Of a stretch of DNA of 64,000 bases, positions 26,919-46,385 are shown piece after piece; the stretch's first letter is position 1; each line of letters begins with the position of its first letter. The DNA lies in contig PAHP01000007.1 of the NCBI GenBank assembly GCA_002705205.1, forward strand, positions 192,122 through 256,121, in the 5' to 3' direction. This DNA is from Flavobacteriales bacterium. GTDB taxonomy: Bacteria > Bacteroidota > Bacteroidia > Flavobacteriales > BACL11. The position numbers and the translations under genes are program-made. The notes under the pieces were generated by a model. It ran no database searches, was not told where the DNA came from, and was given only the letters and a program-made list of their open reading frames with translations.

Positions 26919-28038
26919 AAAAATATGGTTATCTCCTCCTCATATTGGAAATAAAGAGAAGGAGTTGGTAAAAGAGGCATTTAACACAAATTGGATAGCT
27001 CCAGTAGGACCTCATATTGACAGCTTTGAAATAGAGCTTGCTAAGAGGTCTCGTAATTCTAATGTAGCAGCATTAAGTAGTGGAACTGCAGCTATTCATC
27101 TAGCTTTAATCTTAGCAGGAGTTCAGAGGGGAGATGATGTTATTTGTTCTTCTTTTACATTTTCTGCTTCAGCTAATCCTATTAAATATTTAGGAGCAAA
27201 CCCTATTTTTGTGGATAGTGAGCAAGAAAGTTGGAATATGTGTCCGTTTCTTCTTGAAAAAGCGATAAAAGATGCTCTTTCTAAGAATAAAAAACCTAAA
27301 GCGATTGTTTTAGTTCATCTTTATGGAATGCCTGCTAAGCTTGATCAGATCATGCGAATTGCAAATGATTATGACATACCTGTAATTGAGGATGCAGCAG
27401 AAGCTCTAGGATCAACTTATAATTCTCAGCCTTTAGGTACGTTCGGTGATTTTGGTGTTTATTCTTTTAATGGAAATAAGATTATTACGACCTCTGGTGG
27501 AGGAGCTCTAGTTTGTGAAGATAAGGCAATGATTGATAAAGCGAGATTCCTAGCGACTCAAGCTCGAGATGAGGCCCCTCATTACGAGCATTCGCAAATT
27601 GGTTATAATTACAGAATAAGTAATGTTTGTGCCGCTATTGGTCTTGGTCAGTTAGAAGTTTTAGATGAAAGAGTTATGCAAAAAAGAAAAATAAATGAAT
27701 ACTATAAAAATGAGCTTTCTACAATTAATGATATTAGTTTTTTAGAGGAAAGAGATGGTAGTTATTCTAATTTTTGGCTAACCACTATAGTTTTAGATAG
27801 TAATTCGGCAATAGATAAGAGAAAATTACGTTTACATCTCGAGAAAGGTAATATTGAGAGTCGTCCTCTTTGGAAACCGATGCATTTACAGCCTATTTTT
27901 TCTAACTGTAAGGCCTATGTAAATGGAGTTTCTGTAGATTTATTCAATAGGGGGCTTTGTTTGCCTTCTGGCACATATATGACTGATGAAGATATTAAAA
28001 GAGTTGTAACAAAGATTAAAGAACTGTATGAAGCTTAG
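26905..28038 (+). CDS. DegT/DnrJ/EryC1 (PglE-like) sugar aminotransferase
   Basis: ALSSGTAAIHLALILAGV, SFTFSASANPIKYLGANPIFVD, VIEDAAEALGS, GDFGVYSFNGNKIITTSGGG. The ORF track starts at a TTG (26863) inside the previous gene; GTG at 26905 is a better start. Confidence 0.92.
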   Translation: MKEDKKIWLSPPHIGNKEKELVKEAFNTNWIAPVGPHIDSFEIELAKRSRNSNVAALSSGTAAIHLALILAGVQRGDDVICSSFTFSASANPIKYLGANPIFVDSEQESWNMCPFLLEKAIKDALSKNKKPKAIVLVHLYGMPAKLDQIMRIANDYDIPVIEDAAEALGSTYNSQPLGTFGDFGVYSFNGNKIITTSGGGALVCEDKAMIDKARFLATQARDEAPHYEHSQIGYNYRISNVCAAIGLGQLEVLDERVMQKRKINEYYKNELSTINDISFLEERDGSYSNFWLTTIVLDSNSAIDKRKLRLHLEKGNIESRPLWKPMHLQPIFSNCKAYVNGVSVDLFNRGLCLPSGTYMTDEDIKRVVTKIKELYEA

Positions 28039-29896
28039 ACTGCAAAATCTTGACAGAATTTATAAACAGCTGATTATGTTGTTGATTGATGTATTTACAT
28101 TAATCTTTGCGCTTTGGTTCTCATTTGTTCTTAGGCTTGGTGACGTATTCCCTGCTGAATTTATCTTTGAGTCTTGGTGGGTATTCTTAGCTCTACCGTT
28201 TGTAATGATTCCATTATTTATAAAACTAGGGTTATATAGAGCAGTTCTACAGTATATGGGCATTAAGGTGATAACCACTACCTTCCAGGCAACTACAATT
28301 AGTTGTTTAGTGATAGGATTCTTTATGATGTTTTTTAGAGAATCAAATCTTCCAAGATCTGTATTGCCAATTTTTTGGTTTATTGCTAATGTATTTGTAA
28401 TAACTTCTCGTTTTTTATTTAAAGGATACTTATATTCTTGGGATAGTTTTGTGAATGAAAGAAAGCAAAGTATTATTTATGGTGCAGGGAATGCAGGAAT
28501 GCAATTAGTAGAAAGCTTGAAGAAAAGTGTTGTTTATGCGCCAATTGCTTTTATAGATGATTCTAAAGAAAAACATGGTACAATCTTAAATTACTTAGAG
28601 GTCTTTCCTTTTGAAAAAATGGAATATTTAATTAAAAAGAAAGATGCTAAGGTATTGTTGTTTGCTATTCCTTCTGTAACTAATAAACAAAGAACAGATA
28701 TTTTAAAAAGACTAACCAAATTTCCAATTGAAGTAAAGATACTTCCTTCAGTAGATAATATTGTGAATGGGGTTATTTCCATTGATAACATTAAACATGT
28801 TGAGGTTGGTGATATTCTAGGAAGAAGTTCTGTTGCTCCTAAAGAAGAGTTGTTAAGAAAAAATATTACAGCAAAGAATATTTTAATTACTGGAGCTGGT
28901 GGTAGTATTGGAGTTGAATTATCAAGACAAATTATGAAGTTATCACCTGAAAAAGTAGTTTTAGTTGATAATGCGGAGTTTAATTTATATTCAATTCATC
29001 TTGAGTTAAAGCAGGAATTAAGTAATGTTGAGGTAATCCCAGCATTGTGTACGATTACTAATTATAATCAGTTAAAGAAGATAATTTTGAAGCATGAAAT
29101 TCATACAATTTATCATGCTGCTGCATACAAACATGTTCCTATGGTAGAAATGAATATTTTTTCTGGTGTTTATAATAATGTTGTAGGAACATATAATGTT
29201 GCAAAAATTGCTGATGAATTGGGTGTTGAAAGTATGGTGTTAATTTCAACAGATAAGGCAGTACGCCCTACAAACATTATGGGAGCTTCAAAAAGGATGT
29301 CAGAATTAGTATTGCAGGCATATTCTGATTCTAGTTGTTGTTTTTCAATGGTTCGATTTGGGAATGTGTTAGATTCTGCAGGTTCTGTTGTTCCATTATT
29401 TAGGGATCAAATAAAGAAAGGTGGTCCACTAACTGTTACACATAGGAATATAACTAGGTATTTTATGTCTATTCCTGAGGCGTCTCAGCTTGTATTACAG
29501 GCTGGAGCTATGGCTAAGGGTGGAGATGTATTTGTATTGGATATGGGAGAGCCGATTAAAATTATTGATTTAGCTTATAAGATGATTCATTTGAGTGGTT
29601 TAACACCAATTGATAATGAGAATCCGGATGGTGATATAAGAATTGAATATACTGGCCTAAGACCAGGAGAAAAATTATATGAAGAGCTCTTAATAGGCAG
29701 TGATGTTATTCAATCAGAACACCCAAGAATAATGCAGGCTATAGAGAAGAGATTAGATATGAGCACCGTTCTTTCGTGTATAGATACTATTAAAGAGGCT
29801 CGAGACAAACAAGATGAGGAAATTGTTAAAGAGCTTTTGTTGAAACATGTTGATGGATATACATCAGAGATTTCAGAAAAGACATTAAATTTGTAG
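28028..29896 (+). CDS. Membrane-bound nucleotide-sugar 4,6-dehydratase (PglF/CapD/FlaA1-like)
   Basis: 622 aa; N-terminal TM bundle, NAD domains SIIYGAGNAGMQLVESL and ILITGAGGSIGVELSRQIM, VRPTNIMGASKRMSEL. Confidence 0.93.
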   Translation: MKLRLQNLDRIYKQLIMLLIDVFTLIFALWFSFVLRLGDVFPAEFIFESWWVFLALPFVMIPLFIKLGLYRAVLQYMGIKVITTTFQATTISCLVIGFFMMFFRESNLPRSVLPIFWFIANVFVITSRFLFKGYLYSWDSFVNERKQSIIYGAGNAGMQLVESLKKSVVYAPIAFIDDSKEKHGTILNYLEVFPFEKMEYLIKKKDAKVLLFAIPSVTNKQRTDILKRLTKFPIEVKILPSVDNIVNGVISIDNIKHVEVGDILGRSSVAPKEELLRKNITAKNILITGAGGSIGVELSRQIMKLSPEKVVLVDNAEFNLYSIHLELKQELSNVEVIPALCTITNYNQLKKIILKHEIHTIYHAAAYKHVPMVEMNIFSGVYNNVVGTYNVAKIADELGVESMVLISTDKAVRPTNIMGASKRMSELVLQAYSDSSCCFSMVRFGNVLDSAGSVVPLFRDQIKKGGPLTVTHRNITRYFMSIPEASQLVLQAGAMAKGGDVFVLDMGEPIKIIDLAYKMIHLSGLTPIDNENPDGDIRIEYTGLRPGEKLYEELLIGSDVIQSEHPRIMQAIEKRLDMSTVLSCIDTIKEARDKQDEEIVKELLLKHVDGYTSEISEKTLNL

Positions 29897-29901
29897 ATAG
29901 A

Positions 29902-31530
29902 ATGAATATTCTATTTGTAATTCCAGCAAGGGGAGGATCTAAAGGTATACCTAGAAAGAATTTGAGGGTGCTTTCTGGAAAACCTCTTTTATATTATGCA
30001 ATTAATAATGCAATTAATTCAGAATATACCGCAGATATTTATGTTTCAAGTGAAGATGATGAAATTTTGAATACTGCTAAGAAGTTTGGAGTAGCAACGC
30101 ATAAAAGAGATGTAAGTATCTCAGATGATCAAACAACCTTAGATCCTGTTATTTATGATTGCTATAAATACGCAAAACATGTTCAGCGTAAGGAATATGA
30201 CTTAATCATTACTATACAGCCAACATCTCCATTACTTACATCTAATTCGCTAGATCTTGCAATAAGCAAGATGATACAAAACATTAATATTGACACATTA
30301 ATAGCAGCTAAGGATTCGACTCATTTGTCTTGGAGAAAAGAAGGAGATCATTATATTCCCAATTATAAAGAACGACTTAATAGACAATATCTTTCTGCTG
30401 AGTTTACTGAAACAGGAGCTTTTTTAATTACAAGGAATACAATAATATCTAAGAATAATAGAATAGGAAGTAATGTTGATTTATTTCTATTAAGCGGTGG
30501 AGAAGAAATAGATATTGATACTTATGAAGATTGGAATTTATGTGAATATTATCTAAGAAGAAAGCATATTTTATTTGTTGTTTCTGGTAATAATATTATT
30601 GGCCTAGGCCATGTATACAATACATTGATCGTCGCGAATGATATACTAAATCATCAAATTACATTTTTAGTAGATAATGAGAGTGAATTAGCTTTAAAAG
30701 TCATTCAATCTAAAAATTATCCTGTTTTAATTCAGAAGAAAGATGATATTATTGAGGATATTAAAAGAATCTCACCTGATATAATTATAAATGATAGGTT
30801 AGATACATCAGAGGATTATATAAAGTCACTAAAAGAGCAAGAGTATAAAGTAATTAATTTTGAAGATTTAGGAAGTGGTGCTGAATTTTCGGATGCCGTA
30901 ATCAATGCAATCTATCCGCAGAGAAGATCTCTTCCTGCTCATTATTTTGGGCAAGAATATTTTATTCTTAGAGATGAATTTATTCTTTCAGATGAGAAAG
31001 TGGTACAAGAAGAAGTAAATAATATCTTGATTGCTTTTGGAGGAGTTGATCCTAACAATTATACTGAGAAAGTTATTCGGACTGTTAACTCATATTGTAA
31101 GAAGAATGGCATAAAAATTACAGTAATATTAGGATTTGGTTATGAAAGAGATGATACCATTAGGCAATATGATAATATTCATGTAAAACATAATGTTTCT
31201 AATATTTCTGATTATATGCTAGAAGCGGATCTGATTTTTACATCAGCAGGAAGGACTATTTATGAGGTTGCCAGTATTGGAACACCAACAATTGTGATGG
31301 GGCAGAATGAAAGAGAGATGACACATTTTTTTGCAAATGCAGAGTATGGGTTTTCTAATTTAGGATTAGGCTATAATATTTCCAATGATGATATTTTAAA
31401 TGAGTTTTTAGTGCTAATAAAATCTTATGACATTAGAAAAGAGATGAGTAAATTAATGAAAAGTCAGGATTTAAAGTCAGGAAGAAAAAGAGTTCATAAA
31501 TTAATACAGCACTTAATACAAGAGCAATGA
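29902..31530 (+). CDS. Bifunctional CMP-nonulosonate synthetase (NeuA/PseF-like) fused to PseG-like UDP-sugar hydrolase
   Basis: 542 aa; N-terminal FVIPARGGSKGIPRKNLRVLSGKPLLYYAI; C-terminal half VVSGNNIIGLGHVYNTLIVANDI ... FTSAGRTIYEVASIGTPTIVMGQNERE typical of PseG. Confidence 0.88.
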   Translation: MNILFVIPARGGSKGIPRKNLRVLSGKPLLYYAINNAINSEYTADIYVSSEDDEILNTAKKFGVATHKRDVSISDDQTTLDPVIYDCYKYAKHVQRKEYDLIITIQPTSPLLTSNSLDLAISKMIQNINIDTLIAAKDSTHLSWRKEGDHYIPNYKERLNRQYLSAEFTETGAFLITRNTIISKNNRIGSNVDLFLLSGGEEIDIDTYEDWNLCEYYLRRKHILFVVSGNNIIGLGHVYNTLIVANDILNHQITFLVDNESELALKVIQSKNYPVLIQKKDDIIEDIKRISPDIIINDRLDTSEDYIKSLKEQEYKVINFEDLGSGAEFSDAVINAIYPQRRSLPAHYFGQEYFILRDEFILSDEKVVQEEVNNILIAFGGVDPNNYTEKVIRTVNSYCKKNGIKITVILGFGYERDDTIRQYDNIHVKHNVSNISDYMLEADLIFTSAGRTIYEVASIGTPTIVMGQNEREMTHFFANAEYGFSNLGLGYNISNDDILNEFLVLIKSYDIRKEMSKLMKSQDLKSGRKRVHKLIQHLIQEQ

Positions 31531-32582
31531 ATATATTAGAATTATTATGTAAAGGAGTAAATTTGAACTATCCAATAGTAAGGCCATATATTATTGCTGA
31601 GATTGGGGTAAACCATGAAGGATCTATGGAAACTGCTAAAAGATTAGTAGATGAAGCTAAAGAAGGAGGAGCTGATGCGGTAAAGTTTCAATCTTATAAA
31701 GCAGAAACATTAGCCTCAAGATATTCCCCTGCTTATTGGGACACTACTAAGGAACCTACTAAATCACAATTTGAGCTATTTAAGAAACATGATTCGTTTT
31801 GGAAAGATGAGATGAAACAGCTGAAAGATTATTGTAATATCGTTGGTATTGAGTTTATGAGTACTCCATTTGATATTGAATCTGCTAAATTTTTAGATAA
31901 TATGATGGATGTCTTTAAGATATCTTCATCTGATATTACGAACAAACCATTTATTGAATTTATTTGTGGCTTTGGTAAGCCAATTATCATGTCAACAGGG
32001 GCTAGCAATTTAGAAGAAGTTCAAGATGCTGTAAATTGGATAAGACCTTTTAATGTCCCTGTAGCATTATTGCATTGTGTATTAAATTACCCCACAGCTG
32101 ATATTAATGCTAATCTAGGAATGATTTCTGGTTTAAAGAAAGCTTTCCCAGATAATATTATTGGTTATTCGGATCATACTTTGCCAAAAGACATGAAGGT
32201 TTGTAAGATAGCTGCTTTACTTGGAGCCGTAATTATAGAGAAGCATTTTACGCATGATAAATCTTTGCCTGGAAATGATCATTATCATGCGATGGATAAA
32301 AATGACCTCAAGAATTTTAATAAAATATTAGATACTACTTTTGAGATTTTAGGCCAATTTAATGTTGAAGCTTTAGATAATGAAGAGGAAGCTAGAATGA
32401 ATGCTAGGAGAAGTTTGGTCGCAGCAAATGATATTCCAAAGGGAAAAATAATTGAAGAAAATGACTTGACTTTTAAAAGACCTGCTTATGGTATTAGTCC
32501 TAGATACATTGATGAAATAGTTGGTAAAGAAGCAAAATTTGATATTAAGGAAGATGATATAATTAGAAAAGACTTGATATGA
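31527..32582 (+). CDS. N-acetylneuraminate/legionaminate/pseudaminate synthase (NeuB/LegI/PseI family)
   Basis: 351 aa; YIIAEIGVNHEGSMETAKRLVDEAKEGGADAVKFQSYKAE, IGYSDHTLP, GAVIIEKHFTHDKSLPGNDHYHAMD; C-terminal SAF-like region. Confidence 0.93.
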   Translation: MNILELLCKGVNLNYPIVRPYIIAEIGVNHEGSMETAKRLVDEAKEGGADAVKFQSYKAETLASRYSPAYWDTTKEPTKSQFELFKKHDSFWKDEMKQLKDYCNIVGIEFMSTPFDIESAKFLDNMMDVFKISSSDITNKPFIEFICGFGKPIIMSTGASNLEEVQDAVNWIRPFNVPVALLHCVLNYPTADINANLGMISGLKKAFPDNIIGYSDHTLPKDMKVCKIAALLGAVIIEKHFTHDKSLPGNDHYHAMDKNDLKNFNKILDTTFEILGQFNVEALDNEEEARMNARRSLVAANDIPKGKIIEENDLTFKRPAYGISPRYIDEIVGKEAKFDIKEDDIIRKDLI

Positions 32583-33724
32583 AAGATCAGTATGTGATTT
32601 TAACAGGTAGTAAGAATAATGCTGGAGATTATTTAATAAAATATCGTGCTAAGAAATTATTTTCTTTACTAAGACCTGATAGAAGAATCATTGATATAAA
32701 TGGTTGGGAGCAATTAAATCTTAAACAATTAGCTATAATAAATCAATCAAAAGCATTAATTTTAATGGGTGGGCCTGCTTTAGTAGAAAATATGGTTCCG
32801 CAAGTCTATGCTCTTACTAATAATTTAAATGATATAAAAGTGCCAATTATAATGATGGGTGTAGGTTGGAAGTCTCAAAGTGGAGATTGGGAAGATACCT
32901 ATAATTACCCTCTGAATGAAAGAACATTATCATTGTTAGAAAGAATTGAGATTTCAGGATATTATTCAAGTGTTAGAGACTATCATACTTTAAGTGCACT
33001 TAGATTTAATGGATTTAATAATTTTTTAATGACCGGATGTCCTGCGTACTACAATAAAGATTTCATTAATACTGAATTCAGGTCTGAGGATATAAATCTA
33101 GTTGCGTTTTCTTTGGGTGTTTCTTTTATGAGATCTCCTTCTATGGAGAAGCTAATGAAAGAAAATATATTAGTATGTAAAGAGAAATTTAAAGAGAAAT
33201 CTTTTAAAGTTGTATTTCATCATTCTTTAGAAAGAGATAAGTTTAAGGCTGATTATAGGTACAGATCAAGACACGTAATACAGCATAATAAATTTGCAGA
33301 TTGGCTTGATGAGAATGACATAAGATATGTTGACATCTCTGGTAGTGCAGAGAATCTTATTAATTATTACAATACTGTGGATCTTCATATTGGCTATAGA
33401 GTACATGCTCATATTTTTATGAATAGTATTAATAAGAAATCTATCCTAATAAGTGAAGATGGAAGAGCTAAGGGAGTAAGATCAGCAATCAGTGGTATTG
33501 TCTTAGATGGATATTTAGAATTTAGAGAGAGTTTTTTCTCAAGAGTTTTCAATAAGATACTACCTTTTTATGATAGATTCAGAGTTAATAATAATTTAAC
33601 CAAAGAATTAATAAGTGAGATTAATTATGAGGATAAGAATGATTTTATTCGCTTAAAGAGCTCAAGAAGACTGATAGATAATAATTATATTATTATGCAA
33701 AATTTTCTAAAACAATTACCCTAA
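32579..33724 (+). CDS. Polysaccharide pyruvyl transferase family protein
   Basis: 381 aa; LTGSKNNAGDYLIKYRAKKLF start, ILMGGPALV, VDLHIGYRVHAHIFMNSINKKSILISEDGRAKG. Confidence 0.8.
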   Translation: MKDQYVILTGSKNNAGDYLIKYRAKKLFSLLRPDRRIIDINGWEQLNLKQLAIINQSKALILMGGPALVENMVPQVYALTNNLNDIKVPIIMMGVGWKSQSGDWEDTYNYPLNERTLSLLERIEISGYYSSVRDYHTLSALRFNGFNNFLMTGCPAYYNKDFINTEFRSEDINLVAFSLGVSFMRSPSMEKLMKENILVCKEKFKEKSFKVVFHHSLERDKFKADYRYRSRHVIQHNKFADWLDENDIRYVDISGSAENLINYYNTVDLHIGYRVHAHIFMNSINKKSILISEDGRAKGVRSAISGIVLDGYLEFRESFFSRVFNKILPFYDRFRVNNNLTKELISEINYEDKNDFIRLKSSRRLIDNNYIIMQNFLKQLP

Positions 33725-33727
33725 TAA

Positions 33728-35005
33728 ATGCAAGTTTTAAAGAGCTCTGTAATTTATCTAGGAAGTAGCATTCTAAATAAAGCAATTCCTTTTTTATTAT
33801 TACCTATTCTCACTAAGTATTTGTCTCCAGCTGAATATGGGGTCTTGTCAATTTTCCAATTAATGATTTCTTTTTTCACAGCTTTTGTGGGTATGAACAT
33901 GTCTATGAATATCTCGAAAAACTTTTTTAAATATAATAAACAAGAAACATCATTAATGATTGGAAATATATTAATGATACTTTCGTTGACGACATTAATC
34001 TATTTCTTCATCACTTTAGGTCTTTCTTTTTATTATCAAGAGATATTTTCTGTCCCATCAAATTGGGTAATTCTTATCCCGTTACTTAGTTTTATGTTTA
34101 TGGTTAATACGATTAATCTAACAATCCTGAGAAATCAGGATAAGGCTTATTTATTTGGTGTGTTTGAAATCATTAATACTGCAATAAATATGGGAGTTAC
34201 TATTTTATTATTAATCATGTATCATTATGGATGGTATTCTAGAGTTGGGGGTATAATTATTGCTTATGGTATTTTTTTTATTATTTCTTTATTTTACATG
34301 AAAAAGAATGGCTTTATAATTCTCCGATATGATAGAGAGGAGTCACGAAAGATTTTAAAATTATCTATTCCATTAATTCCGCATGTGCTAGGAGGAATTA
34401 TTATTTCTTTAAGTGATCGTTTTTTTATTGAGAGGATGGTCAATCTGGAGATGGTTGGTATTTATTCAGTTGGCTATATGTTTGGGATGGTTGTCCTTTT
34501 ATTTACAAGTGCTTTTTTAAAAGCATGGGCTCCATGGTTTTATAAGATGTTGTCAGATGTTGATGACAAAAAGAAGAGAAATATTGTAAGATATAGTTAT
34601 TTATATATTTTAGCAACATTTGTTATTGCATTTGGGGTGTCTATTTTTGCTAAATTTATCATTCCTTATGTAGTAGATAGTAGCTATGCTGGAGCTGAGG
34701 TTTATGTTTTCTGGATTGCTATTGGTTATGCAGTACATGGTGTGTATAAGATATTTTTTCCTTATTTAGTACATATAAGCAAAACATCTTTTTTAGCAGT
34801 AAGCACAGTCATTGCAGCAGTATTAAACCTATTTTTTAATTATCTTTTAATAAAAGAATTTGGAGCTATTGGGGCTGCATATTCAACAGTATTATCTTTT
34901 GTTATAAGTGCTAGTTTAGTGTTTTGGTATCAGCAAAAAAATTTTAATATGCCTTGGTTATTAGATCTACAGCTTTTAGTTTCAGTAAAAAACAAGAATG
35001 AATAA
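33728..35005 (+). CDS. Wzx-like polysaccharide flippase (MATE/MOP superfamily)
   Basis: 425 aa polytopic; SSVIYLGSSILNKAIPFLLLPILTKYLSPAEYGVLSIFQ. Confidence 0.88.
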   Translation: MQVLKSSVIYLGSSILNKAIPFLLLPILTKYLSPAEYGVLSIFQLMISFFTAFVGMNMSMNISKNFFKYNKQETSLMIGNILMILSLTTLIYFFITLGLSFYYQEIFSVPSNWVILIPLLSFMFMVNTINLTILRNQDKAYLFGVFEIINTAINMGVTILLLIMYHYGWYSRVGGIIIAYGIFFIISLFYMKKNGFIILRYDREESRKILKLSIPLIPHVLGGIIISLSDRFFIERMVNLEMVGIYSVGYMFGMVVLLFTSAFLKAWAPWFYKMLSDVDDKKKRNIVRYSYLYILATFVIAFGVSIFAKFIIPYVVDSSYAGAEVYVFWIAIGYAVHGVYKIFFPYLVHISKTSFLAVSTVIAAVLNLFFNYLLIKEFGAIGAAYSTVLSFVISASLVFWYQQKNFNMPWLLDLQLLVSVKNKNE

Positions 35006-35034: not shown

Positions 35035-35241
35035 GCAAAGAAAGAGAATAAATTAGCATTAGAAGAAGTAATGAAATTTATTGATATTATTAAAGAAGCT
35101 AGAGATAAAGAAGCTAGAGATAAAGAAGCTAGAGATAAAGAAGCTAGAGATAAAGAAGCAGGAATACTTGTTAAACAACTTTTGTTGAAACATATTGATG
35201 GATGTGCATCAAAACCCCTAGAAAAGAAATTAAATTTGTAA
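35035..35241 (+). pseudogene. Relic of the 3' end of a second pglF/CapD-like gene
   Basis: Reading frame AKKENKLALEEVMKFIDIIKEARDK(EARDK)3EAGILVKQLLLKHIDGCASKPLEKKLNL* aligns with the C-terminus of 28028..29896 (IEKRLDMSTVLSCIDTIKEARDKQDEEIVKELLLKHVDGYTSEISEKTLNL*). Clear nucleotide identity in ...CTTTTGTTGAAACAT.TTGATGGAT...TTAAATTTGTA. Confidence 0.85.
35092..35160 (+). repeat. Tandem 15-bp repeat AAAGAAGCTAGAGAT (KEARD), four perfect copies plus a partial
   Basis: Copies at 35092, 35107, 35122, 35137, then partial AAAGAAGCA at 35152; in frame with the relic above. Confidence 0.97.
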
Positions 35242-35242
35242 A

Positions 35243-36601
35243 ATGAATATTTTAGTACTTGGAGCAGGAACTTTTGGTACTGCTATTGCAAACGAGCTCT
35301 CAGCAAATAAAGATAATAATGTTATCTTGTTCTCACGAAATCAAGATAAAGTTGATGAGATTAATAAATGGCATACAAATAAGTCTTGTTTCCCAAATAA
35401 ACATTTGACAAATACTCTGTTGGCTTCATCTGATAAGAAGGATGTTAAGAATGCTGACGTTATTTTAATTGCATTGCCTTCGTCTGTAATTATTAAATAT
35501 TTGACTTCTCTTCAGCAGCATTTTAAAAAAGAGGTTTTATTAGTTAATTTGTCGAAAGGATTATTTGCTAATGGAGTGACTATCGTAGAAAGTCTTCAAG
35601 AGCAATTGGGTATTGCAAATGTTGTAACTTTAAAAGGACCGTCATTTGCAGTTGAGGTGATGGAACATGCTGACACGCTACTTACTCTTGGTTACTCTAC
35701 AAATGAGCAGTATTATATCATTAATTCTATTATCAAAAATACTGCTTTACATATTGATTGCACTACTGATATTAGAGGGGTGGAAGTGTTGAGCGTACTT
35801 AAAAATATTTATGCGTTAATTCTTGGTGTTGTAGATGCAAAATATAATTCTCCAAATACAAGATTTATGATTCTCACTAAAGCATTTTCTGAGGTTAGAG
35901 TTTTGTTAAGGTCATTAGGAGGTGCTGAAGACACTTTGTTTCTGGCTTGTGGTTTTGGAGATTTATGCTTGACTTCATTGAATGACTTGAGTAGAAATAG
36001 AACATTGGGCTTATTAATAGGTAAAGGTTTTTTTAGTGGTGATTATAAAACCAACTCTGTTATATTAGAAGGCTTGAATGCGGTAAATTTAGTACATAGT
36101 TTCCCTTTGGATCATATTATAGAAAATCTGCCATTATTAAATAAGTTACATTCATTCTTTGGAAGTAAAACAAATATTTTATCTATTGAGTTTGATAAAT
36201 TGGTTGACAGGAAGTTTAGAACTGTGTTGACATATGGTACTTTTGATTTATTGCATTATGGCCATTTAGAGATTTTAAGAAGAGCAAGTCAATTAGGAGA
36301 TAAGCTTATTGTCGGTCTTTCTACTGATGAATTTAATGAATTGAAAGGAAAAAGATGTGTTTTAACATACAAAAAGAGAAAGGAATTACTAGAATCACTT
36401 GACTATGTAGACAAGGTAATCCCTGAAAGTAATTGGGAACAAAAGATGAATGATATTAAGGAAAATGATATTGATATATTTCTCATGGGGAATGATTGGG
36501 AAGGGAAATTTGATGCAATGAAGGAGTATTGTGAGGTTATTTATCTTCCAAGAACGAAAGGAATTTCTACAACAAAGTTAAAGTCTATTCTAAAAGACTA
36601 A
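35243..36601 (+). CDS. Fusion: glycerol-3-phosphate dehydrogenase (GpsA-like) plus glycerol-3-phosphate cytidylyltransferase (TagD/GCT-like)
   Basis: 452 aa; N-terminal VLGAGTFGTAIANELSANKDNNVILFSRN, NLSKGL, GVEVLSVLKNIYAL; C-terminal LTYGTFDLLHYGHLEILRRASQLGDKLIVGLSTDEFNELKGKR ... GNDWEGKFDAMKEYCEVIYLPRTKGISTTKLK. Confidence 0.93.
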   Translation: MNILVLGAGTFGTAIANELSANKDNNVILFSRNQDKVDEINKWHTNKSCFPNKHLTNTLLASSDKKDVKNADVILIALPSSVIIKYLTSLQQHFKKEVLLVNLSKGLFANGVTIVESLQEQLGIANVVTLKGPSFAVEVMEHADTLLTLGYSTNEQYYIINSIIKNTALHIDCTTDIRGVEVLSVLKNIYALILGVVDAKYNSPNTRFMILTKAFSEVRVLLRSLGGAEDTLFLACGFGDLCLTSLNDLSRNRTLGLLIGKGFFSGDYKTNSVILEGLNAVNLVHSFPLDHIIENLPLLNKLHSFFGSKTNILSIEFDKLVDRKFRTVLTYGTFDLLHYGHLEILRRASQLGDKLIVGLSTDEFNELKGKRCVLTYKKRKELLESLDYVDKVIPESNWEQKMNDIKENDIDIFLMGNDWEGKFDAMKEYCEVIYLPRTKGISTTKLKSILKD

Positions 36602-36607
36602 TGGTTC

Positions 36608-37972
36608 ATGTCTGCATACATTAAATCAATACTTTCTGACAAGGAGATTTTGACTAAGGGATTTTATTCGTTGATTTTGAAAATACTAGGTTCTTTATTT
36701 GGTTATTTTTTACTTTGGCTAGTTACAAATGAGTTTAGTGAACATAATGAAGGTACTAGTGCATGGGGAGAGTATGTTCTTTTTTTAGCATTTTTAAATG
36801 TGTCATCTATATTCTCTCGTTTAGGAATTGATAAGCTTTCGCTTAAATTAGTTGCTGCTGCGGATCAGGAATTAAGAATAGTGAGACATATATACTTTTC
36901 TTTATTAAGGTTAGTTGTTATAGTATCTATTATTGTTTCGTTTATTATCTACTTATTTTCTAATTATATTGTGTCTATTTTATTAAGTAGTTCTGACATG
37001 GGATTAGAGATTGTACTTATGATCGTGTTTGTTTTACCATTTTTTTCTGTCATATGCCTTAATGAGAACACCTTGAGAGGGCTCAAAATGATTAAAGAAT
37101 TTGCATTTTTCCAAAGAACCTCTAAGATGCTCTTTTCAGTTTTAGTATTTATATTACTGTTTTATGTTTTTAATTTTACAGATACTATTGTTGTTATCTA
37201 TGCGTATACATTAGCATTATTTTTGATTTTTATTTTGAGCTCCTTTAGAGTGTATAGTGTTTTCTCAAAGGCTAAGAGTCAAAATATTGATTCTCTATAT
37301 AGTAAGGGTGTTTTTAAGCAGTCACTCCCAATGATGCTTTCTTCAAGTGTCTTATTATTAATGTCATGGACAGACTCTTTGATGCTTGGTTTCTACTCGG
37401 ATGAATCTTCTGTTGGTATTTATAATGTTACTGTGAAGGTTGCATTACTTGCAACATTAACAATATCAGCTATTAATAGTATTGTAGCACCTAGGATATC
37501 AGAGACATTTAATAATAATAGAATTCAAGAGTTTAAAACAATTATCTTTAATTCTACTAGTATAATCTTTTTTTCTACTTTACCTATTTTAATTTTAATA
37601 TTTTTATTTCATACTGAGATTCTAGATTTCTTCGGTAATGGATTTTCTACAGAATCAGCGATTTCTGCATTATTGATTTTAACATTCAGTCAATTCGTAA
37701 ATGCTGTTTCAGGCCCTGTTGGAACTATTCTTAATATGACAGGTAAACAAAAAGTTTATGGTAATATATTGCTTGTTGCATTGACTCTTAATATCTTTCT
37801 TAATTTTCTACTTGTTCCAGAAAATAATCCTTTTGCTAAGTTTGGAATTAACGGTATAAATGGAGCTGCTATTGCTAGTGCAAGTAGTTTAATATTTTGG
37901 AATATATATTCTGTTGTATATGTATATAGAAAGTATAATGTATTGACATTCATAAAATTTAAAAATTTATAA
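36608..37972 (+). CDS. Second Wzx-like polysaccharide flippase
   Basis: 454 aa polytopic, MOP-superfamily-like (SWTDSLMLGFYSDESSVGIYNVTVKVALL). Confidence 0.85.
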   Translation: MSAYIKSILSDKEILTKGFYSLILKILGSLFGYFLLWLVTNEFSEHNEGTSAWGEYVLFLAFLNVSSIFSRLGIDKLSLKLVAAADQELRIVRHIYFSLLRLVVIVSIIVSFIIYLFSNYIVSILLSSSDMGLEIVLMIVFVLPFFSVICLNENTLRGLKMIKEFAFFQRTSKMLFSVLVFILLFYVFNFTDTIVVIYAYTLALFLIFILSSFRVYSVFSKAKSQNIDSLYSKGVFKQSLPMMLSSSVLLLMSWTDSLMLGFYSDESSVGIYNVTVKVALLATLTISAINSIVAPRISETFNNNRIQEFKTIIFNSTSIIFFSTLPILILIFLFHTEILDFFGNGFSTESAISALLILTFSQFVNAVSGPVGTILNMTGKQKVYGNILLVALTLNIFLNFLLVPENNPFAKFGINGINGAAIASASSLIFWNIYSVVYVYRKYNVLTFIKFKNL

Positions 37973-37974
37973 TC

Positions 37975-39189
37975 ATGAAGAAGTATATTAAATATCTTCC
38001 TAAACTAGCTAGTCCTCTTATGTTCGTTATTTATCTGTTAGTTTATTTTTTGCCTAGAAATAAAAACATATGGGTTTTCGGTTCTGGGATAGGAATGAAC
38101 TTTAGTGATAATGCAAAGTATCTCTTTTTATATTGTTCTAATATTGATAAGATGTATTCATGTTGGATTACAAGAAATAGAGATCTAGTTAAAAGGCTAA
38201 GGTTGGAGGGTTTAAATGCACATTATAAATATAGTTTTAAAGGTTTGTGGTATTGTATTCGTGCAAAGATATATATCTATGATTCTAGAACAGGAAGTAT
38301 TAATCATTGGACTTCTTCAGGAGCGCTTAAAGTTAATCTTTGGCATGGTTCTCCATTAAAAACAATTGATAGAGATATTGATGTAAAGCATAATGCGTTT
38401 TATATAGGTAACCATACGTGGGGATATAAGAGGTTTTTAGTGAGGATATTAATGCCTCAATGGTTTGTGGTAGCAGATCTAATGATTGCAACTTCTGCTA
38501 AGGTTAAGGGTTATTTTACTTCTGCTTTTGGATCAAAAAAGATTAAAGTTACTGGTTATCCAAGAAATGACATCATTCTTAGTAGTGGTCTTTATACGAA
38601 GCATTTGAAATTTGAATCTGAAATTATTGATACATTTAATACAAAAAATATCATTTTATATGCTCCGACATTTAGAGATTCAGATAGGCACGAAAGGGTG
38701 ACTCCAATTGACTGGGTTGTCTTAAATGATTTGATGAGAGAAAATGATGCAACTTTTTTGATTAAGTTACACCGGCATGATTATTCAGTGGTGTTGAAGC
38801 AGCGTTATAGTAATATAAGAGTTCTTGATAATGAAAGTGATATGTATCCGCTTTTTTCTAGAGTTGATTTATTAATCACAGATTATTCTTCTATCTTTTT
38901 TGATTTTTTATTAACAGGCAAACCTGTATTGTTCTTCCCTTATGATAAGGAAAAATATATCACTAGGCATCGATCAATGTATGATGATTATGATTCTGTG
39001 ACACCTGGATATAAGGTGTATAACTTTGAGGATTTTCGTATAAAATTAATAGACTTTTTTAATAATGCCGATTTATTAAAACAAACCGCAGTAGATTACA
39101 ATAAGATAAAGAAATTATACAATTTATATAATGACAGTAATTCTTCTAAGAGAGTATATGCTTTCATTAAAGATAGCCTAGGTATTTGA
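37975..39189 (+). CDS. CDP-glycerol glycerophosphotransferase family protein (TagB/TagF-like)
   Basis: 404 aa; VNLWHGSPLKTIDRD, KVTGYPRNDIIL, ILYAPTFRDSD, DLLITDYSSIFFDFLLTGKPVLFFPYDKEKY. Confidence 0.92.
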   Translation: MKKYIKYLPKLASPLMFVIYLLVYFLPRNKNIWVFGSGIGMNFSDNAKYLFLYCSNIDKMYSCWITRNRDLVKRLRLEGLNAHYKYSFKGLWYCIRAKIYIYDSRTGSINHWTSSGALKVNLWHGSPLKTIDRDIDVKHNAFYIGNHTWGYKRFLVRILMPQWFVVADLMIATSAKVKGYFTSAFGSKKIKVTGYPRNDIILSSGLYTKHLKFESEIIDTFNTKNIILYAPTFRDSDRHERVTPIDWVVLNDLMRENDATFLIKLHRHDYSVVLKQRYSNIRVLDNESDMYPLFSRVDLLITDYSSIFFDFLLTGKPVLFFPYDKEKYITRHRSMYDDYDSVTPGYKVYNFEDFRIKLIDFFNNADLLKQTAVDYNKIKKLYNLYNDSNSSKRVYAFIKDSLGI

Positions 39190-40490
39190 AAATAATTTTT
39201 AAAAATATAATTATTAATGAATTGTATTACTTGGTAATTTTCTTCCCCTTATGGTGGTTTTTAGGTGTTGAACAATTTTTTTGGTTTGTTTCTGTAGGAT
39301 TAGTTTTTATACAATTTCTTATTTATAGTAAATTTGAGTTTCGTGCTAATATGACCTCTATTTTACTTTTATTTTTTTTAGTTATTTATGGTATTTCTTT
39401 TTTTAGTATTCAAGAGAAGATGAGATATATTACTTATTTTAGAAACCTGAGCACATATCTTACTGCTTTCATGTTATTAATTATTTCTTGGAATATTATT
39501 GATAAATGGAGTCAGATAGAAAAGCTCTTAAAAGCAATTGTTTTTGTAATGTTTATTGCATCAATCGTTGGAATTTTAGCATTTTCTTTTGAAATATTCA
39601 GAGTACAGTTTAAATCTCTTACAGGATACTTGTTGCCCGCATTTATTACTAAGACTGGTTATGGTAGTGTGATTGCAGTAAGGAATGTAGGTTTTTATAA
39701 CTGGTTCTTAGGTATGGATACTTATTTTAGACCTAGTTCATTCTTTCTGTATTCAACAATGTTCTCCTCAACATTAGCTATTGTGTTGCCTATTGCAATG
39801 TTCTTACGGCAAATAAATAAAGGTATAAAAAGAAAATATTATTCAATTGTAGTATTAATAATGATTTTAGCATTATTAGCAACAACAGGAAGGGTTGCGA
39901 TATTATCTTTTTTTCTGGCATTTGTAATTTTTCAATATATGAAAATTAAAGATATTTCAATTCGATTTCTATTTGTAAGTTTAATTGTATTCCTTTCGGC
40001 AGTTTTTTTATTTTGGTTAGCGAACACTGGTGTTTTATATCAGATTATAGACGTAGTGTTGTATTCTAGAGGTGAAGGAAGTGCTAATACAAGGATGAAG
40101 ATTTATACTCAAACATTGAAAGGCTTCTTGCAAAGACCTTTTTTTGGCTGGGGCACCGAAAGGGATGTTAATGGTCTAGATTATCCATTAGGATCTCATA
40201 GCTACTATTTAGGCACATTGTATAAACAGGGGTTGGTAGGTTTATTTTTGTTCATAAGTATAATTATTGAAATTTGGAAGAAGCTTAGGGTAAACTATAA
40301 AACTGATAATAAGATAGTTAAGTTTCTGAAATATGGACAGTTATTGTTATTAGTCTATGTTTTTAATAGTTTTACAGATGTTTTAGATCTTGATGCAACA
40401 ACAATGATGTTTCTATGGTTGATTCTGTCATTGCTAATTGTTTCCAAAAGAGTATTAAACAGAGAGATGATAAAAAAAGAGAATGCATAA
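39186..40490 (+). CDS. Second O-antigen ligase/polymerase-like membrane protein
   Basis: 434 aa polytopic; TGRVAILSFFLAFVIF, GWGTERDVNGLDYPLGSHSYYLGTLYKQGLVGLFLF. Start codon TTG. Confidence 0.82.
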   Translation: MKIIFKNIIINELYYLVIFFPLWWFLGVEQFFWFVSVGLVFIQFLIYSKFEFRANMTSILLLFFLVIYGISFFSIQEKMRYITYFRNLSTYLTAFMLLIISWNIIDKWSQIEKLLKAIVFVMFIASIVGILAFSFEIFRVQFKSLTGYLLPAFITKTGYGSVIAVRNVGFYNWFLGMDTYFRPSSFFLYSTMFSSTLAIVLPIAMFLRQINKGIKRKYYSIVVLIMILALLATTGRVAILSFFLAFVIFQYMKIKDISIRFLFVSLIVFLSAVFLFWLANTGVLYQIIDVVLYSRGEGSANTRMKIYTQTLKGFLQRPFFGWGTERDVNGLDYPLGSHSYYLGTLYKQGLVGLFLFISIIIEIWKKLRVNYKTDNKIVKFLKYGQLLLLVYVFNSFTDVLDLDATTMMFLWLILSLLIVSKRVLNREMIKKENA

Positions 40491-41178
40491 GATACTTTCA
40501 GATAATTTATCAAATAATAATAAGCGGTTAACAACTTTTCTTAACTTATATTCTTATATGATTGCAAGAAATAATAAAGCGGTTTTTAAAGAGTTTAATA
40601 TATTGATAGATGGAATTATATTTGTATGGATCCTAAAGCTATTTGGTTTTTCTCGCGTTCGAAGAAATAGTTTTGATATGACATCTTTAGCTCCAATAGT
40701 ATTTAAAGCAGCTATAGAGAATAACAATAGTATCTATTTTATTGGTTCAAAACCGAAAGTTATTGATACAGCCATAAAAAAGATTAAAGCAAAGTTTAGC
40801 AATCTAAATATTTGTGGCTATAGAGATGGATATTTAAATGAAAATGAAAGAGATTCTATTTTTAACGACATAATTTCTTTAAAAGCTGATATTGTAGTTT
40901 GTGGAATGGGGACCCCTTTACAAGAACAGTTCTTATTAGGTTTACAACAATCTGGATTTAAAGGTAGAGGATATACTTGTGGAGGTTTCTTGCATCAGAC
41001 AGCTAATAATATTAGTTATTATCCTAATTGGGTTGATAGATTTAATTTAAGAGGTTTCTATAGAATGTATGACGAACCCTATTTGATAAAACGATATTTT
41101 ATCTTGTACCCTTGGTCTTTAATAAAATATCTTATTGATTCTTATGAATATAATAAAGAGAAAAAAAGATCTTCCTGA
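40483..41178 (+). CDS. WecG/TagA/CpsF family (GT26) glycosyltransferase
   Basis: 231 aa; IYFIGSKPKVIDTAIKKIKAKFSNLNICGYRDGY, ADIVVCGMGTPLQEQFLLG, TCGGFLHQTA. Confidence 0.93.
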   Translation: MHKILSDNLSNNNKRLTTFLNLYSYMIARNNKAVFKEFNILIDGIIFVWILKLFGFSRVRRNSFDMTSLAPIVFKAAIENNNSIYFIGSKPKVIDTAIKKIKAKFSNLNICGYRDGYLNENERDSIFNDIISLKADIVVCGMGTPLQEQFLLGLQQSGFKGRGYTCGGFLHQTANNISYYPNWVDRFNLRGFYRMYDEPYLIKRYFILYPWSLIKYLIDSYEYNKEKKRSS

Positions 41179-41400: not shown

Positions 41401-42519
41401 ATGAAAAATAAAGTAGCATTAATTACAGGTATCACAGGTCAAGATGGGTCTTATTTGGCAGAATTTCTCTTAAATAAAGGATATGTGGTTCATGGGATTA
41501 AAAGGAGGTCATCTTCTTTTAATACAGATAGAATTGACCATTTGTATCAAGACCCTCATATTAAAGATAGACATTTGATACTTCATTATGGAGATATGAC
41601 AGACTCTATGAGTTTGATGAAAATTATAAAAGAAGTTTGTCCTGATGAAATATATAATTTAGCTGCAATGAGCCATGTTCATGTTTCATTTCAGATCCCT
41701 GAATATGTAGCAAATACTGATGGTTTAGGTGCTTTAAGGGTATTAGAAGCGATTCGTTTATTGGGATTAAGTAATAAGATAAAGGTTTACCAAGCATCAA
41801 CATCAGAACTTTACGGTAAAGCACAAGAAGTTCCGCAATCAGAAACAACTCCTTTTTATCCTAGAAGTCCTTATGCAGTGGCAAAATTATATGCGTTTTG
41901 GGCAACAAAAAATTATAGGGAGGCTTATGGAATTTTTGCTTGTAATGGGATTTTATTTAATCATGAGTCACCTGTAAGAGGAGAGACATTTGTGACTCGT
42001 AAAATCACTCGTGGAGTTGCAAAAATTGCTTTAGGGCTACAAGAAAAATTATACTTAGGAAACTTGGGGGCAAGCAGGGACTGGGGGCATGCGAAAGATT
42101 ATGTAAGAATGATGTGGATGATATTACAAGCTGACAAGCCAGAGGATTGGGTGATTGCTACTGGAAAAACAACTACTGTTCGTGAGTTTGTAAAAATGGC
42201 TTTTGCTTTTGCAGGAATTGAACTAGAGTTTAAAGGTGAAGGTGAGAATGAAAAGGGTATTGTGGTCTCTTGTTCAAACACTAAATATCAGCTTGAAAAT
42301 GGTCAGGAGGTAGTTTTAGTTGACACTACATATTTCAGGCCAACAGAAGTCGATTTATTAATTGGTGATGCTACAAAGGCAAATACAAAGTTAGGATGGA
42401 TTCCAGAATATAGTTTAGAAGCATTGATCAATGAGATGATGGATTCAGATTTAAAACTGATGAGTAAAGATCAATATCTGAAAGATGGTGGTTACGCCAT
42501 TATGAACTATTTTGAATAG
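41401..42519 (+). CDS. gmd: GDP-mannose 4,6-dehydratase
   Basis: 372 aa; [62 protein letters not shown]. Confidence 0.98.
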
Positions 42520-43600
42520 GATGGAGAAACAAAGTAAAGTTTATATTGCGGGACACAAAGGGTTGGTTGGCTCAGCAATTTTGAATAGTTTAATCAGAAA
42601 AGGGTATCATAACGTAGTTTTTAGAACTCATTCAGAGCTAGATTTAACAGATCAATATGCTGTAAGAGATTTCTTTGAGTTAGAAAAACCAGAATTTGTA
42701 ATATTGGCTGCAGCAAAGGTAGGAGGTATTATGGCTAATAATATTTATCGTGCTGATTTTATTTACGAGAATATAATGATTCAGAATAATGTTATTCATC
42801 AATCATATTTATCTGGCGTTAAAAAGCTTTTGTTTTTAGGAAGCACATGTATTTATCCAAAGGATGCTCCTCAGCCTATATTAGAGAGTAGCCTTCTTAC
42901 TTCAGAGTTAGAATATACAAATGAACCATATGCAATTGCTAAGATTGCAGGGATTAAAATGTGTGAGAGTTATAATCTACAGTATGGAACTAATTTTATT
43001 TCAGTCATGCCAACGAATTTATATGGGCCACATGACAACTTTGATCTAGAGAATTCTCATGTTTTACCTGCTTTAATTCGTAAAATTCATTTAGGAAAGT
43101 GCCTTGAGATTGATAATTGGGAAGTTATTCTGAATGATTTAATTAGAAATCCTATCTCTGGTTTTGACATCAACTCTTCAAAGGAAGATATACTTCTATT
43201 ATTAAATAAATATGGTATAAGAAGAGGAGAGATTGAGATTTGGGGGAGTGGGGCTCCGCGACGTGAATTTCTATGGTCTGAGGACATGGCTGACGCGTGT
43301 ATCTTTTTTCTAGAAAATAGAGATTTTAAGGATATGTATGATTCCGTTAATAATGAGATTAGAAATACACATATTAATATTGGGACAGGTACTGATATCT
43401 CAATAAAGGAATTAGCTAATAAAATTAAGGATCTAATTGGTTATCAGGGTAAATTTATTTTTAATACCTCAAAACCTGATGGGCCAATTAAGAAACTTTC
43501 AGACATTTCAAAACTAGAATCATTAGGGTGGAGATATTCTGTTTCTCTTGATAAAGGTGTTGAAAAATATTATTCATGGTATTTATCTGAGTTAATATAG
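42512..43600 (+). CDS. fcl: GDP-L-fucose synthase
   Basis: 362 aa; [62 protein letters not shown]. Confidence 0.97.
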
Positions 43601-43627: not shown

Positions 43628-45013
43628 ATGAAGGGTTACTCAAGGTATTTCTGGTTTATTCATTTTATAGGTGATGTTTTCTTTCTAAATATTGCCTTTA
43701 TATTAATGTATGTATTGAAGTTTGATACGATAGATTTCTCAGATAAATACCGATTTCTTATTGTAATCTATAATGCAGTATGGATTTTAGTTGCTTTAAC
43801 ATTACAGTTATATGAGATTAAACAACTAAAACGATTAGACAGGATCTTGTTTAATCTTTTTAAATCCTTCCTCCTTAATGCATTAATAATTAGTGCAGTA
43901 TTATTCTCTTTAAAAGCTTCTGAGTTTTCTAGAGAGCATCTCTATTCAACTTATTTATTGCTTTTTGGGCTAATTATGTTTTGGAGGTATCTTTCTGTCC
44001 AATTGATTAAATTATATAGAAAATCAGGATTTAACTATAAGAACGTGATTATTATTGGAGGAGGAGGGGTAGCAGATCAGCTACACTCTTATTTTACCTC
44101 AGATGATATATTAGGAGTTAGAGTTAAGGCAGTTTTTTGTGATAACCCATTATCATTCTCGATTAAGAAAAATATTAGATCTTTAGAAGTGGATTTGTTC
44201 CAAGATTTTGCATTACGAAATGATATTGATGAAGTGTATTATACGATGCCATTAACTTATACAAAGAAGATAAAGAGTTTGGTTGATTTTTGTGATAAGA
44301 ATATGATTAGGTTTAAGATTGTTCCTGATTTTAGAGGTTTTATCTTTAAGCGAGTAAATATTGATTTCTTTGATGATGTTCCTGTTATTACATTAAGAGA
44401 GGAGCCGCTTACTGATTTTGTAAATAGAGTTTTAAAACGAATGTTTGATATTATGTTCTCAGCACTAGTAATTATATTGGTGTTAAGTTGGTTATATCCA
44501 CTTATTGCCATCCTGATTAAATTATCATCAAAAGGACCAGTATTATTTAAACAGGCACGTTCAGGAGTAGATAATGAAGAGTTTATATGTTATAAGTTCC
44601 GATCAATGGCACAAAGTGATAGTGCAGACACTAAACAAGCAACAAAAGGAGATGCTCGTATTACAAAGATAGGTGCTTTCTTAAGAAAATCTTCTTTAGA
44701 TGAATTTCCTCAGTTTATTAATGTATTTATGGGAGACATGTCAATAGTTGGACCAAGACCTCATATGCTATTGCATACCGAAGAATATTCAGCTCTTATA
44801 AATAAATATATGGTAAGGCAATTAGTAAAACCAGGAATTACTGGAGCAGCACAAGTTAAGGGGTTTAGAGGCGAGACTAAGGAATTAGAAGATATGGAAG
44901 GTAGAATTCGTTTAGATGTTTGGTATATAGAGAATTGGTCATTATCATTAGATATTAATATTATTTTCCATACAGTCTGGAATGTTTTTAGGGGTGATGC
45001 AAACGCTTTTTAA
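43628..45013 (+). CDS. Polyprenyl-phosphate hexose-1-phosphate transferase (WcaJ/WbaP-like)
   Basis: 461 aa; N-terminal TM bundle plus C-terminal bacterial sugar transferase domain (YKFRSMAQ, DEFPQFINVFMGDMSIVGPRPHM). Confidence 0.95.
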   Translation: MKGYSRYFWFIHFIGDVFFLNIAFILMYVLKFDTIDFSDKYRFLIVIYNAVWILVALTLQLYEIKQLKRLDRILFNLFKSFLLNALIISAVLFSLKASEFSREHLYSTYLLLFGLIMFWRYLSVQLIKLYRKSGFNYKNVIIIGGGGVADQLHSYFTSDDILGVRVKAVFCDNPLSFSIKKNIRSLEVDLFQDFALRNDIDEVYYTMPLTYTKKIKSLVDFCDKNMIRFKIVPDFRGFIFKRVNIDFFDDVPVITLREEPLTDFVNRVLKRMFDIMFSALVIILVLSWLYPLIAILIKLSSKGPVLFKQARSGVDNEEFICYKFRSMAQSDSADTKQATKGDARITKIGAFLRKSSLDEFPQFINVFMGDMSIVGPRPHMLLHTEEYSALINKYMVRQLVKPGITGAAQVKGFRGETKELEDMEGRIRLDVWYIENWSLSLDINIIFHTVWNVFRGDANAF

Positions 45014-46385
45014 AACATGCTTTTTGATACTTGCTCCATTCTATGTTTTTTCACAGAATAATACATTCCGTTCTTTAATAGAGACTCAATTTACAAATTT
45101 TCCTACAGATACCTCTAATTATATAAGTATAGCTCCGAATGTATATGCGGTGTCTTCGTTTAATAAAGAAAGTGATATTTCAAATATTTTCTTGTTAAGA
45201 GCAACGCTTACGTCTAATATTTCTAATAATTTAACTGTCATCTCTTATTTTGATTATCTAGCAGTAAATAGTAATTATCTAATAAAAGAATATCAGGATT
45301 CTTTAGGTATTTTTCCTGGTTTTGGATTAGATGATAAACGTATTCAATATAATTTCAGATATAAAATAAATAAGTTCATTTCTGCTGATTTGGGCAATGG
45401 GAAACAATTTATTGGTAATGGATATCAGTCACTTCTACTCTCAGATATAGCATCTCCTTACCCATATTTACGATTAACTACCGAGTTTGGAAGAGTAAAG
45501 TATTATAATCTCTATACGACCTTTATCAATCCCTATATGAGTGATTTTGGGAGAAAAAAACACTCTACAATTCATTATTTAGACTTTGCTATCTCAAAGA
45601 ATATTAATCTTGGAGTTTTTGAGAGTATATTATGGCAATCAAAATCTGAGGAATTAAATAAAGGATATGAGTTAGCATATTTAAATCCTGTAATATTTTA
45701 TAGGCCTGTTGAGTTTTCAAAATATTCAAGCAAAGGGAATGCATTGATGGGATCTAATTTTAGTATAAACTTTAAAGCAATGACCTTATATGGACAATTT
45801 TTGTTAGATGATTTAAATATATCTAGGCAGAAGGATAGAGATGATGATTATGAGAAAGGTTTCTTCCAGAATAAATATGCATATCAAATAGGGTTGAAAG
45901 GAAATATAAAAGATGTTAATTTTCTACTAGAATACAATCAGGTTCAACCATATACATACGGTCATAGAACTATTCTACAGAACTATTCGCATATGAATCA
46001 AGCATTAGCACATCCATTAGGAGCTAATTTCAAAGAGATGATTAATGTTTTAGAATTAAGAAAAGGGAAATGGAGTTATAAGATAAAAACTATGTTTACT
46101 ATTGTTGGTCTAGATTCGTTAGGCTCTCATTATGGTCAAGATATCTTTGCCTCTGATAAGGATGCTAGTACTGGTGGGCAATATTCTTATGGCAACTTTA
46201 ATGGGCAAGGGGTCAAAACAACTATTTTTTCTTTTCAGCCAGAGGTTTCGTTTAGTATTAAGCAGTTTGAAGTATTTGGAATGGTTTATTATAGAACTAA
46301 AAAATCTGACCTATTAGATCAATCTTTTTTATTTTATTCAGTTGGTTTCCGAACCTTTCCATTCATGAACTTTATTGATTATTAA
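44998..46385 (+). CDS. Outer-membrane beta-barrel, Wzi capsule-assembly / RemB-like
   Basis: Signal peptide (LIRAPFYVFSQ-type), aromatic beta-strand pattern, DLGNGKQFIGNGYQSLLLSDIASPYPYLRLTTEFGRVKYYNLYT. The ORF track starts at 44982; ATG at 44998 fits the signal peptide better. Confidence 0.72.

Follow-up and report, generated by a model that had tools for sequence, protein, structure and literature searches.

Glycerol-3-phosphate cytidylyltransferases (GCT) such as Bacillus subtilis TagD and Staphylococcus aureus TarD (PDB 1coz, 2b7l) are characterized by the CTP-binding motifs HxGH and RTxGISTT, by the phosphate-binding lysines Lys44 and Lys46, and by a dimer-interface motif, RYVDEVI (PMC8262930). 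Capsules containing glycerol-phosphate (GroP) are known in Gram-negative bacteria (PMC5974469), and in Actinobacillus pleuropneumoniae the Cps3B/D and Cps7B/D pairs consist of a GCT and a Glyphos_transf-family polymerase, which are encoded by separate genes and of which the polymerase is large and multi-domain (PMC5974469, PMC8262930). In Ligilactobacillus agilis, L. ubinensis and Clostridium oryzae, gpsA and tagD, encoding the same two activities as proposed below, lie side by side, but the genes are unfused and their GpsA proteins fall outside the clade described here.

The window analysed here, a stretch of 64,000 nucleotides from the metagenome-assembled genome (MAG) of a marine Flavobacteriales bacterium, likewise combines a GCT with a Glyphos_transf-family enzyme in a presumptive Gram-negative GroP-containing glycan locus. 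In contrast to the A. pleuropneumoniae systems, the GCT is fused to a GpsA-type dehydrogenase, the transferase is small and the setting is of the Wzx/Wzy type. GroP on a Bacteroidota glycan, as we propose from gene content, is reported for the O-glycan of Porphyromonas gingivalis (PMC8729774). Given this report and the Gram-negative capsules (PMC5974469), GroP chemistry as such is not new; the parts for which we found no published description are the fusion and an apparent replacement of GpsA, most subscription papers lying outside that search. We consider it likely that the fusion is a bifunctional enzyme, that the nearby transferase places GroP on a Wzx/Wzy glycan, and that the dehydrogenase, GpsA2, has taken the place of canonical GpsA in the window's family.

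The features of the locus are as follows.

28028..29896, +, PglF/CapD-type nucleotide-sugar dehydratase (synteny)
29902..35005, +, inserted cassette of 5.1 kb (Pfam, NCBIfam; relatives lack it between pglF and gpsA2)
29902-31530, +, PseF-PseG fusion, in cassette
31527-32582, +, NeuB family synthase, in cassette
32579-33724, +, polysaccharide pyruvyl transferase, in cassette
33728-35005, +, flippase, in cassette
35044..35241, +, decayed copy of the pglF 3' end (insertion scar), before the fusion (nucleotide match to resident pglF)
35243..36601, +, GpsA2-TagD fusion protein, 452 aa (ORF, Pfam, NCBIfam, solved-sequence matches, AlphaFold2/Foldseek)
35243..36172, +, GpsA-type dehydrogenase domain, aa 1-310 (alignment with human GPD1 and GpsA2 sequences)
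36173..36217, +, short linker, IEFDKLVDRKFR region (end comparison with relatives)
36218..36598, +, TagD-type cytidylyltransferase domain, aa 326-452 (NCBIfam, solved-sequence matches, alignment)
36608..37972, +, Wzx-type flippase, Polysacc_synt/MatE (Pfam)
37975..39189, +, CDP-glycerol glycerophosphotransferase, Glyphos_transf, single domain, 404 aa (Pfam, NCBIfam, alignment)
39186..40490, +, Wzy_C/O-antigen ligase-type polymerase (Pfam)
40483..41178, +, GT26 WecG/TagA/CpsF-family glycosyltransferase, Glyco_tran_WecG (Pfam, NCBIfam)
41401..43600, +, GDP-mannose dehydratase and GDP-fucose synthase homologues, two genes (sequence, synteny)
43628..45013, +, WcaJ/WbaP-type initiating sugar-phosphate transferase, CoA_binding_3 and Bac_transf

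The GpsA2-TagD fusion protein

The ORF at 35243-36601 opens with ATG and encodes 452 aa in a single frame without an internal stop. Pfam placed NAD_Gly3P_dh_N at aa 3-154 (6.9e-33), NAD_Gly3P_dh_C at aa 176-306 (3e-25) and CTP_transf_like at aa 329-447 (1.4e-24), and the NCBIfam glycerol-3-phosphate cytidylyltransferase model TIGR01518 matched aa 328-448 with 175.6 bits, above its equivalog cut-off of 165.4. The original prediction of a GpsA-like and a TagD-like enzyme on one 452-aa chain was thereby borne out, both families named for its domain search being found on the same polypeptide. The closest solved sequences were B. subtilis TagD 1coz (3.4e-50) and Coxiella GpsA 3k96 (8.8e-32); an AlphaFold2 model contained both domains with a mean pLDDT of 84.9, weak only at residues 243-266, and Foldseek with this model retrieved 3k96 GpsA and 1coz TagD (TMt 0.96, 124 columns). 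Since three other MAGs of the window's family carry the fusion at the corresponding position, with 78-83% identity, and isolates such as Aestuariibaculum marinum and Aequorivita capsosiphonis have it as well, the intact frame cannot be ascribed to a frameshift or an assembly join, and the artefact envisaged as a possible refutation is excluded. Promoter-like sites were less frequent in the sequence than in shuffled versions of it, and terminator-like sites only marginally more frequent; PADLOC gave no match, and no plasmid or phage record in the collections searched matched 80% of the fusion at a single site.

The dehydrogenase domain carries a GxGxFG nucleotide loop. Its K105, K187-N188, D240, T244 and R251-N252 align with K120, K204-N205, D260, T264 and R269-N270 of human GPD1, residues which we take to be catalytic, and are nearly invariant among 22 GpsA2 sequences. 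With both Pfam domains above cut-off and this Lys/Asn/Asp/Thr/Arg set present, the domain belongs to the GpsA-type enzymes; as it missed the cut-off of every NCBIfam GpsA model (best 191.5 versus 257), we describe it as a divergent paralogue, GpsA2. Phylogenetic analysis united fused and unfused GpsA2 domains in a single clade separate from canonical GpsA (support 100/99), on a long branch and with about 26-31% identity to the latter. GpsA2 thus has the fold and active-site residues of bacterial GpsA (PDB 3k96, 1z82) in common, but forms a separate deep clade below the NCBIfam cut-offs, and judged by its sequence it is a distinct paralogue encoded in a surface-glycan locus.

The long branch, together with the retention of GpsA2 beside pglF even where TagD is lacking, could point to a changed substrate: following a pglF-type dehydratase, the enzyme would take part in nucleotide-sugar chemistry and reduce another phosphorylated keto compound or a glycan intermediate. 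We regard this as very unlikely, because GpsA2 retains every residue aligned with the human DHAP/G3P site, has a fusion partner scoring above the G3P-specific TIGR01518 cut-off, and is the sole GpsA-type protein in those genomes of the window's family that carry it.

The cytidylyltransferase half matched B. subtilis TagD and S. aureus TarD with E values of 3.4e-50 and 1.5e-49 and has the HxGH motif, RTxGISTT and the counterparts of Lys44/Lys46 in common with them, the conserved residues being HYGH 338-341, K368/K370, R379, W398, R437-T438 and S442-T443. The active sites of both halves therefore look intact in the alignments, in answer to the residue check that had been proposed. Unlike TagD and TarD, the domain stands behind a dehydrogenase, and the arginine of RYVDEVI, Arg63, has been lost clade-wide: the motif reads DYVDKVI in the window, with Asp in place of Arg63, and none of the 17 fused sequences has the arginine, nor do related solo TagDs or two RmlC-TagD fusions, whereas R or K occupies the position in 12 of 13 other TagDs. 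As the motif belongs to the dimer interface rather than to the catalytic site, its loss marks a divergent member and does not exclude activity. The RmlC-TagD proteins, encoded in Polaribacter (L133:9470-10417 and a matching gene of L134), have TagD at the C-terminus of an RmlC-type dTDP-4-dehydrorhamnose 3,5-epimerase and represent a second, different TagD fusion, adjoining a Glyphos_transf-like gene.

The surrounding glycan locus

The flippase, CDP-glycerol glycerophosphotransferase, polymerase/ligase-like protein and GT26 predicted to follow the fusion were all recovered with Pfam. The transferase scored 192.2 bits (1.7e-56) against a cut-off of 22.1 for PF04464, and its alignment with Staphylococcus epidermidis TagF spans both conserved-histidine regions (WHGSPLK and LIKLHRHD). 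Its best NCBIfam model was TarF, and none of the wall teichoic acid equivalogs was reached within the locus (TarA 44.5 versus 350 bits, TarB 44.1 versus 500, TarF 113.5 versus 550, TarL 79.4 versus 1000). A single domain of 404 aa also sets it apart from the large multi-domain TagF-like capsule polymerases.

A true teichoic acid-like poly(glycerol phosphate), made by a wall teichoic acid-type pathway with a TagA linkage step, would account for a Glyphos_transf and a WecG/TagA-family GT26 within one gene run, and such a polymer had been one of the two glycan forms offered in the original prediction. We consider it highly improbable. The transferase is short, of TarF/TagB size, and not a TagF polymerase; the GT26 passed the WecG/TagA superfamily cut-off (82.9 versus 69 bits) but fell far below the TarA equivalog, and no GT26 was observed at the fusion loci of other lineages, so that it does not count as evidence for a linkage unit. 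Neither a TagO initiator nor a TagGH ABC exporter was seen among the scanned locus genes, whose initiators are of the Bac_transf type. As Wzx, Wzy_C and Bac_transf are present and no ABC exporter was seen, a heteropolysaccharide with GroP as a substituent or linker fits better, and the locus looks like a Wzx/Wzy system for a heteropolysaccharide bearing glycerol-phosphate rather than a wall teichoic acid pathway. Of the original prediction, GroP derived from DHAP by way of G3P and CDP-glycerol remains the best reading, as the fusion is real, its active sites look intact and a CDP-glycerol-dependent transferase is encoded close by; poly(glycerol-phosphate) is not supported.

Gene order (pglF - gpsA2-tagD - flippase - Glyphos_transf - Wzy - GT26) matches in three MAGs of the family, with most of these genes 58-85% identical to those of the window, the flippases of L108 and L109 not being close; homologues of the GDP-mannose dehydratase and GDP-fucose synthase also lie downstream in some relatives. 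The GpsA2(-TagD) gene directly follows the pglF-type dehydratase in relatives; in the window the 5.1 kb cassette, which the original prediction did not mention, stands between them. The decayed pglF copy that precedes the fusion matches the tail of the resident pglF with 78.5% identity along 107 bp (E 1.3e-19) and includes a 15-bp repeat, present 4.6 times, at 35091-35159. This copy makes entry of the cassette by exchange at pglF most likely, and accordingly the fusion most likely adjoined pglF before the insertion, as far as can be read from these sequences. Within the cassette, 29902-31530 encodes a PseF-type cytidylyltransferase and a PseG-type hydrolase on one 542-aa chain adjoining the NeuB-family synthase, all of which scored under the Pse/Neu equivalog cut-offs.

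Three further observations concern the window at large. A 565-aa protein inside the glycan locus (23883-25580) carries a sulfotransferase domain at its C-terminus, preceded by an N-terminal part of about 270 residues that matched no Pfam family; a 1277-aa secreted-looking repeat protein (48028-51861, minus strand) ends in a sequence resembling a T9SS-type C-terminal region; and gldJ/L/M/N-like genes lie at 12.5-17.1 kb.

Distribution and history of the fusion

Comparison of the window protein with 149 relatives yielded five further full-length fusions. Seven, the window included, were found among 396 evenly drawn Flavobacteriales, and none besides that of the window among 392 evenly drawn Bacteroidota. 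A scan of 84,980 species, with one genome per species, found carriers in Flavobacteriaceae, Crocinitomicaceae, Cryomorphaceae and Ichthyobacteriaceae; all these counts are lower bounds. The survey that had been suggested for the same fusion beside TagB/F elsewhere had a positive outcome: 15 of the 17 fused loci compared across Flavobacteriales have a polyol-phosphate (GroP) transferase gene (Glyphos_transf or LicD) in their neighbourhood, some of these genes being assigned by 26-32% BLAST identity only, and none was seen in the stretch examined at the remaining two (L120, L123). Firmicutes matches resembling fusions turned out to be two adjacent genes. An 847-aa reading joining a divergent GpsA2 in frame to an outer-membrane protein that resembles window ORF 44982-46385 (G027, L055:6902-9442) was not counted and is probably no real fusion, as it contains ambiguous bases throughout and its counterpart in G037 (L054:5429-7969) consists of two separate genes.

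The GpsA2 tree contains a subclade of 18 sequences (14 unfused, four fused; support 98/95), all but one from the window's family, and the four fused sequences are nested within it (100/99). For TagD, the solo proteins of G011, G034 and G046 group with the fused ones of the window's group (99/97); the best tree places them inside the fused ones, and a tree uniting the four fused sequences was not rejected (p-AU 0.147). The linker has its homologues at the C-terminus of unfused GpsA2, which ends '...FDDLID', and at the N-terminal end of the solo TagDs of relatives, which start 'MNIIDGKFKTVL', the fused protein reading '...FDKLIDRKFKTVL'. As solo TagDs starting with a remnant of the fusion linker fit the fission of an older fusion, we tentatively read these sequences as an old fusion that split in the window's family, with the window's group having kept or regained it.

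Glycerol-3-phosphate supply in the window's family

Among 52 genomes of the window's family, a C-terminal GpsA domain was detected exactly once in 29, of which 10 had canonical GpsA only (154-168 bits), 19 had GpsA2 only (87-107 bits) and none had both. Canonical GpsA as query recovered its own kind in G011, G022, G020 and G067, but in 17 GpsA2 genomes it found only the GpsA2 gene, without a further copy. Assuming that gene misses are independent among assemblies, the chance that incompleteness alone produced the GpsA2-only pattern is about 5e-20 for the 19 genomes and 1.7e-4 for the four fusion genomes. The window's own genome is a 73%-complete MAG, in which absences were judged by searches; a weak second GpsA-like match there (G000:C8:129817) proved to be a D-2-hydroxyacid dehydrogenase. 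Glycerol kinase was detected in none of the 52 genomes, the controls being detected, and PlsY, a consumer of G3P, in nine of 13 GpsA2 genomes tested. In the other 23 genomes, three of them at 95-97% completeness (G007, G008, G038), neither GpsA type was detected, which indicates either a source of G3P that escaped detection or systematic gaps in the assemblies.

With a sole GpsA and no glycerol kinase detected, the G3P formed in this family must probably also feed phospholipids, and the GpsA2 of the glycan locus is probably its housekeeping G3P enzyme as well. The exclusive distribution of the two types is observed; that GpsA2 replaced canonical GpsA is what we infer from it. Alternatively, in line with the channelling put forward in the original prediction, the fusion could serve CDP-glycerol only, passing G3P between its domains, with housekeeping G3P coming from elsewhere. 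Outside the window's family canonical GpsA indeed accompanies the fusion in eight of nine genomes (G067, G396-G402; G321, by coordinates the same genome as G401, was counted once), including Aestuariibaculum, Aequorivita, Brumimicrobium, Pareuzebyella and others, and the fusion can thus be dedicated there; the ninth, G078 (68% complete), has the fusion only. In the window's family, however, neither canonical GpsA nor glycerol kinase was found with the fusion or GpsA2, and most GpsA2 genes stand without any TagD, which makes a dedicated CDP-glycerol route unlikely there and this explanation as a whole doubtful. The chances seem to us about even for the fuller account, in which GpsA2 displaced ordinary GpsA, the fusion supplies all G3P for phospholipids besides that for GroP decoration, and other members shed TagD.

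From the families and conserved residues, the N-terminal domain would convert DHAP and NAD(P)H to sn-glycerol-3-phosphate, and the C-terminal domain would convert this with CTP to CDP-glycerol, from which, judging by the gene content, the 404-aa transferase would add GroP to the repeat unit of a surface polysaccharide that Wzx and Wzy assemble. The GpsA2 half would, in the window's family, probably supply G3P for phospholipids too, and relatives abandoning CDP-glycerol would retain GpsA2 without the TagD half. The fusion may thus represent a naturally occurring path, on one chain, from DHAP to CDP-glycerol, which according to PMC8262930 is not sold as a pure enantiomer, and its loci point to surface glycans bearing glycerol-phosphate among marine Flavobacteriales. 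Should the replacement be true, a variable surface-glycan locus acquired an essential lipid-precursor enzyme, an unusual case, and part of a hypervariable locus would stay fixed; if GpsA2 displaced ordinary GpsA as proposed, membrane and coat synthesis would be coupled in the fusion-bearing species.
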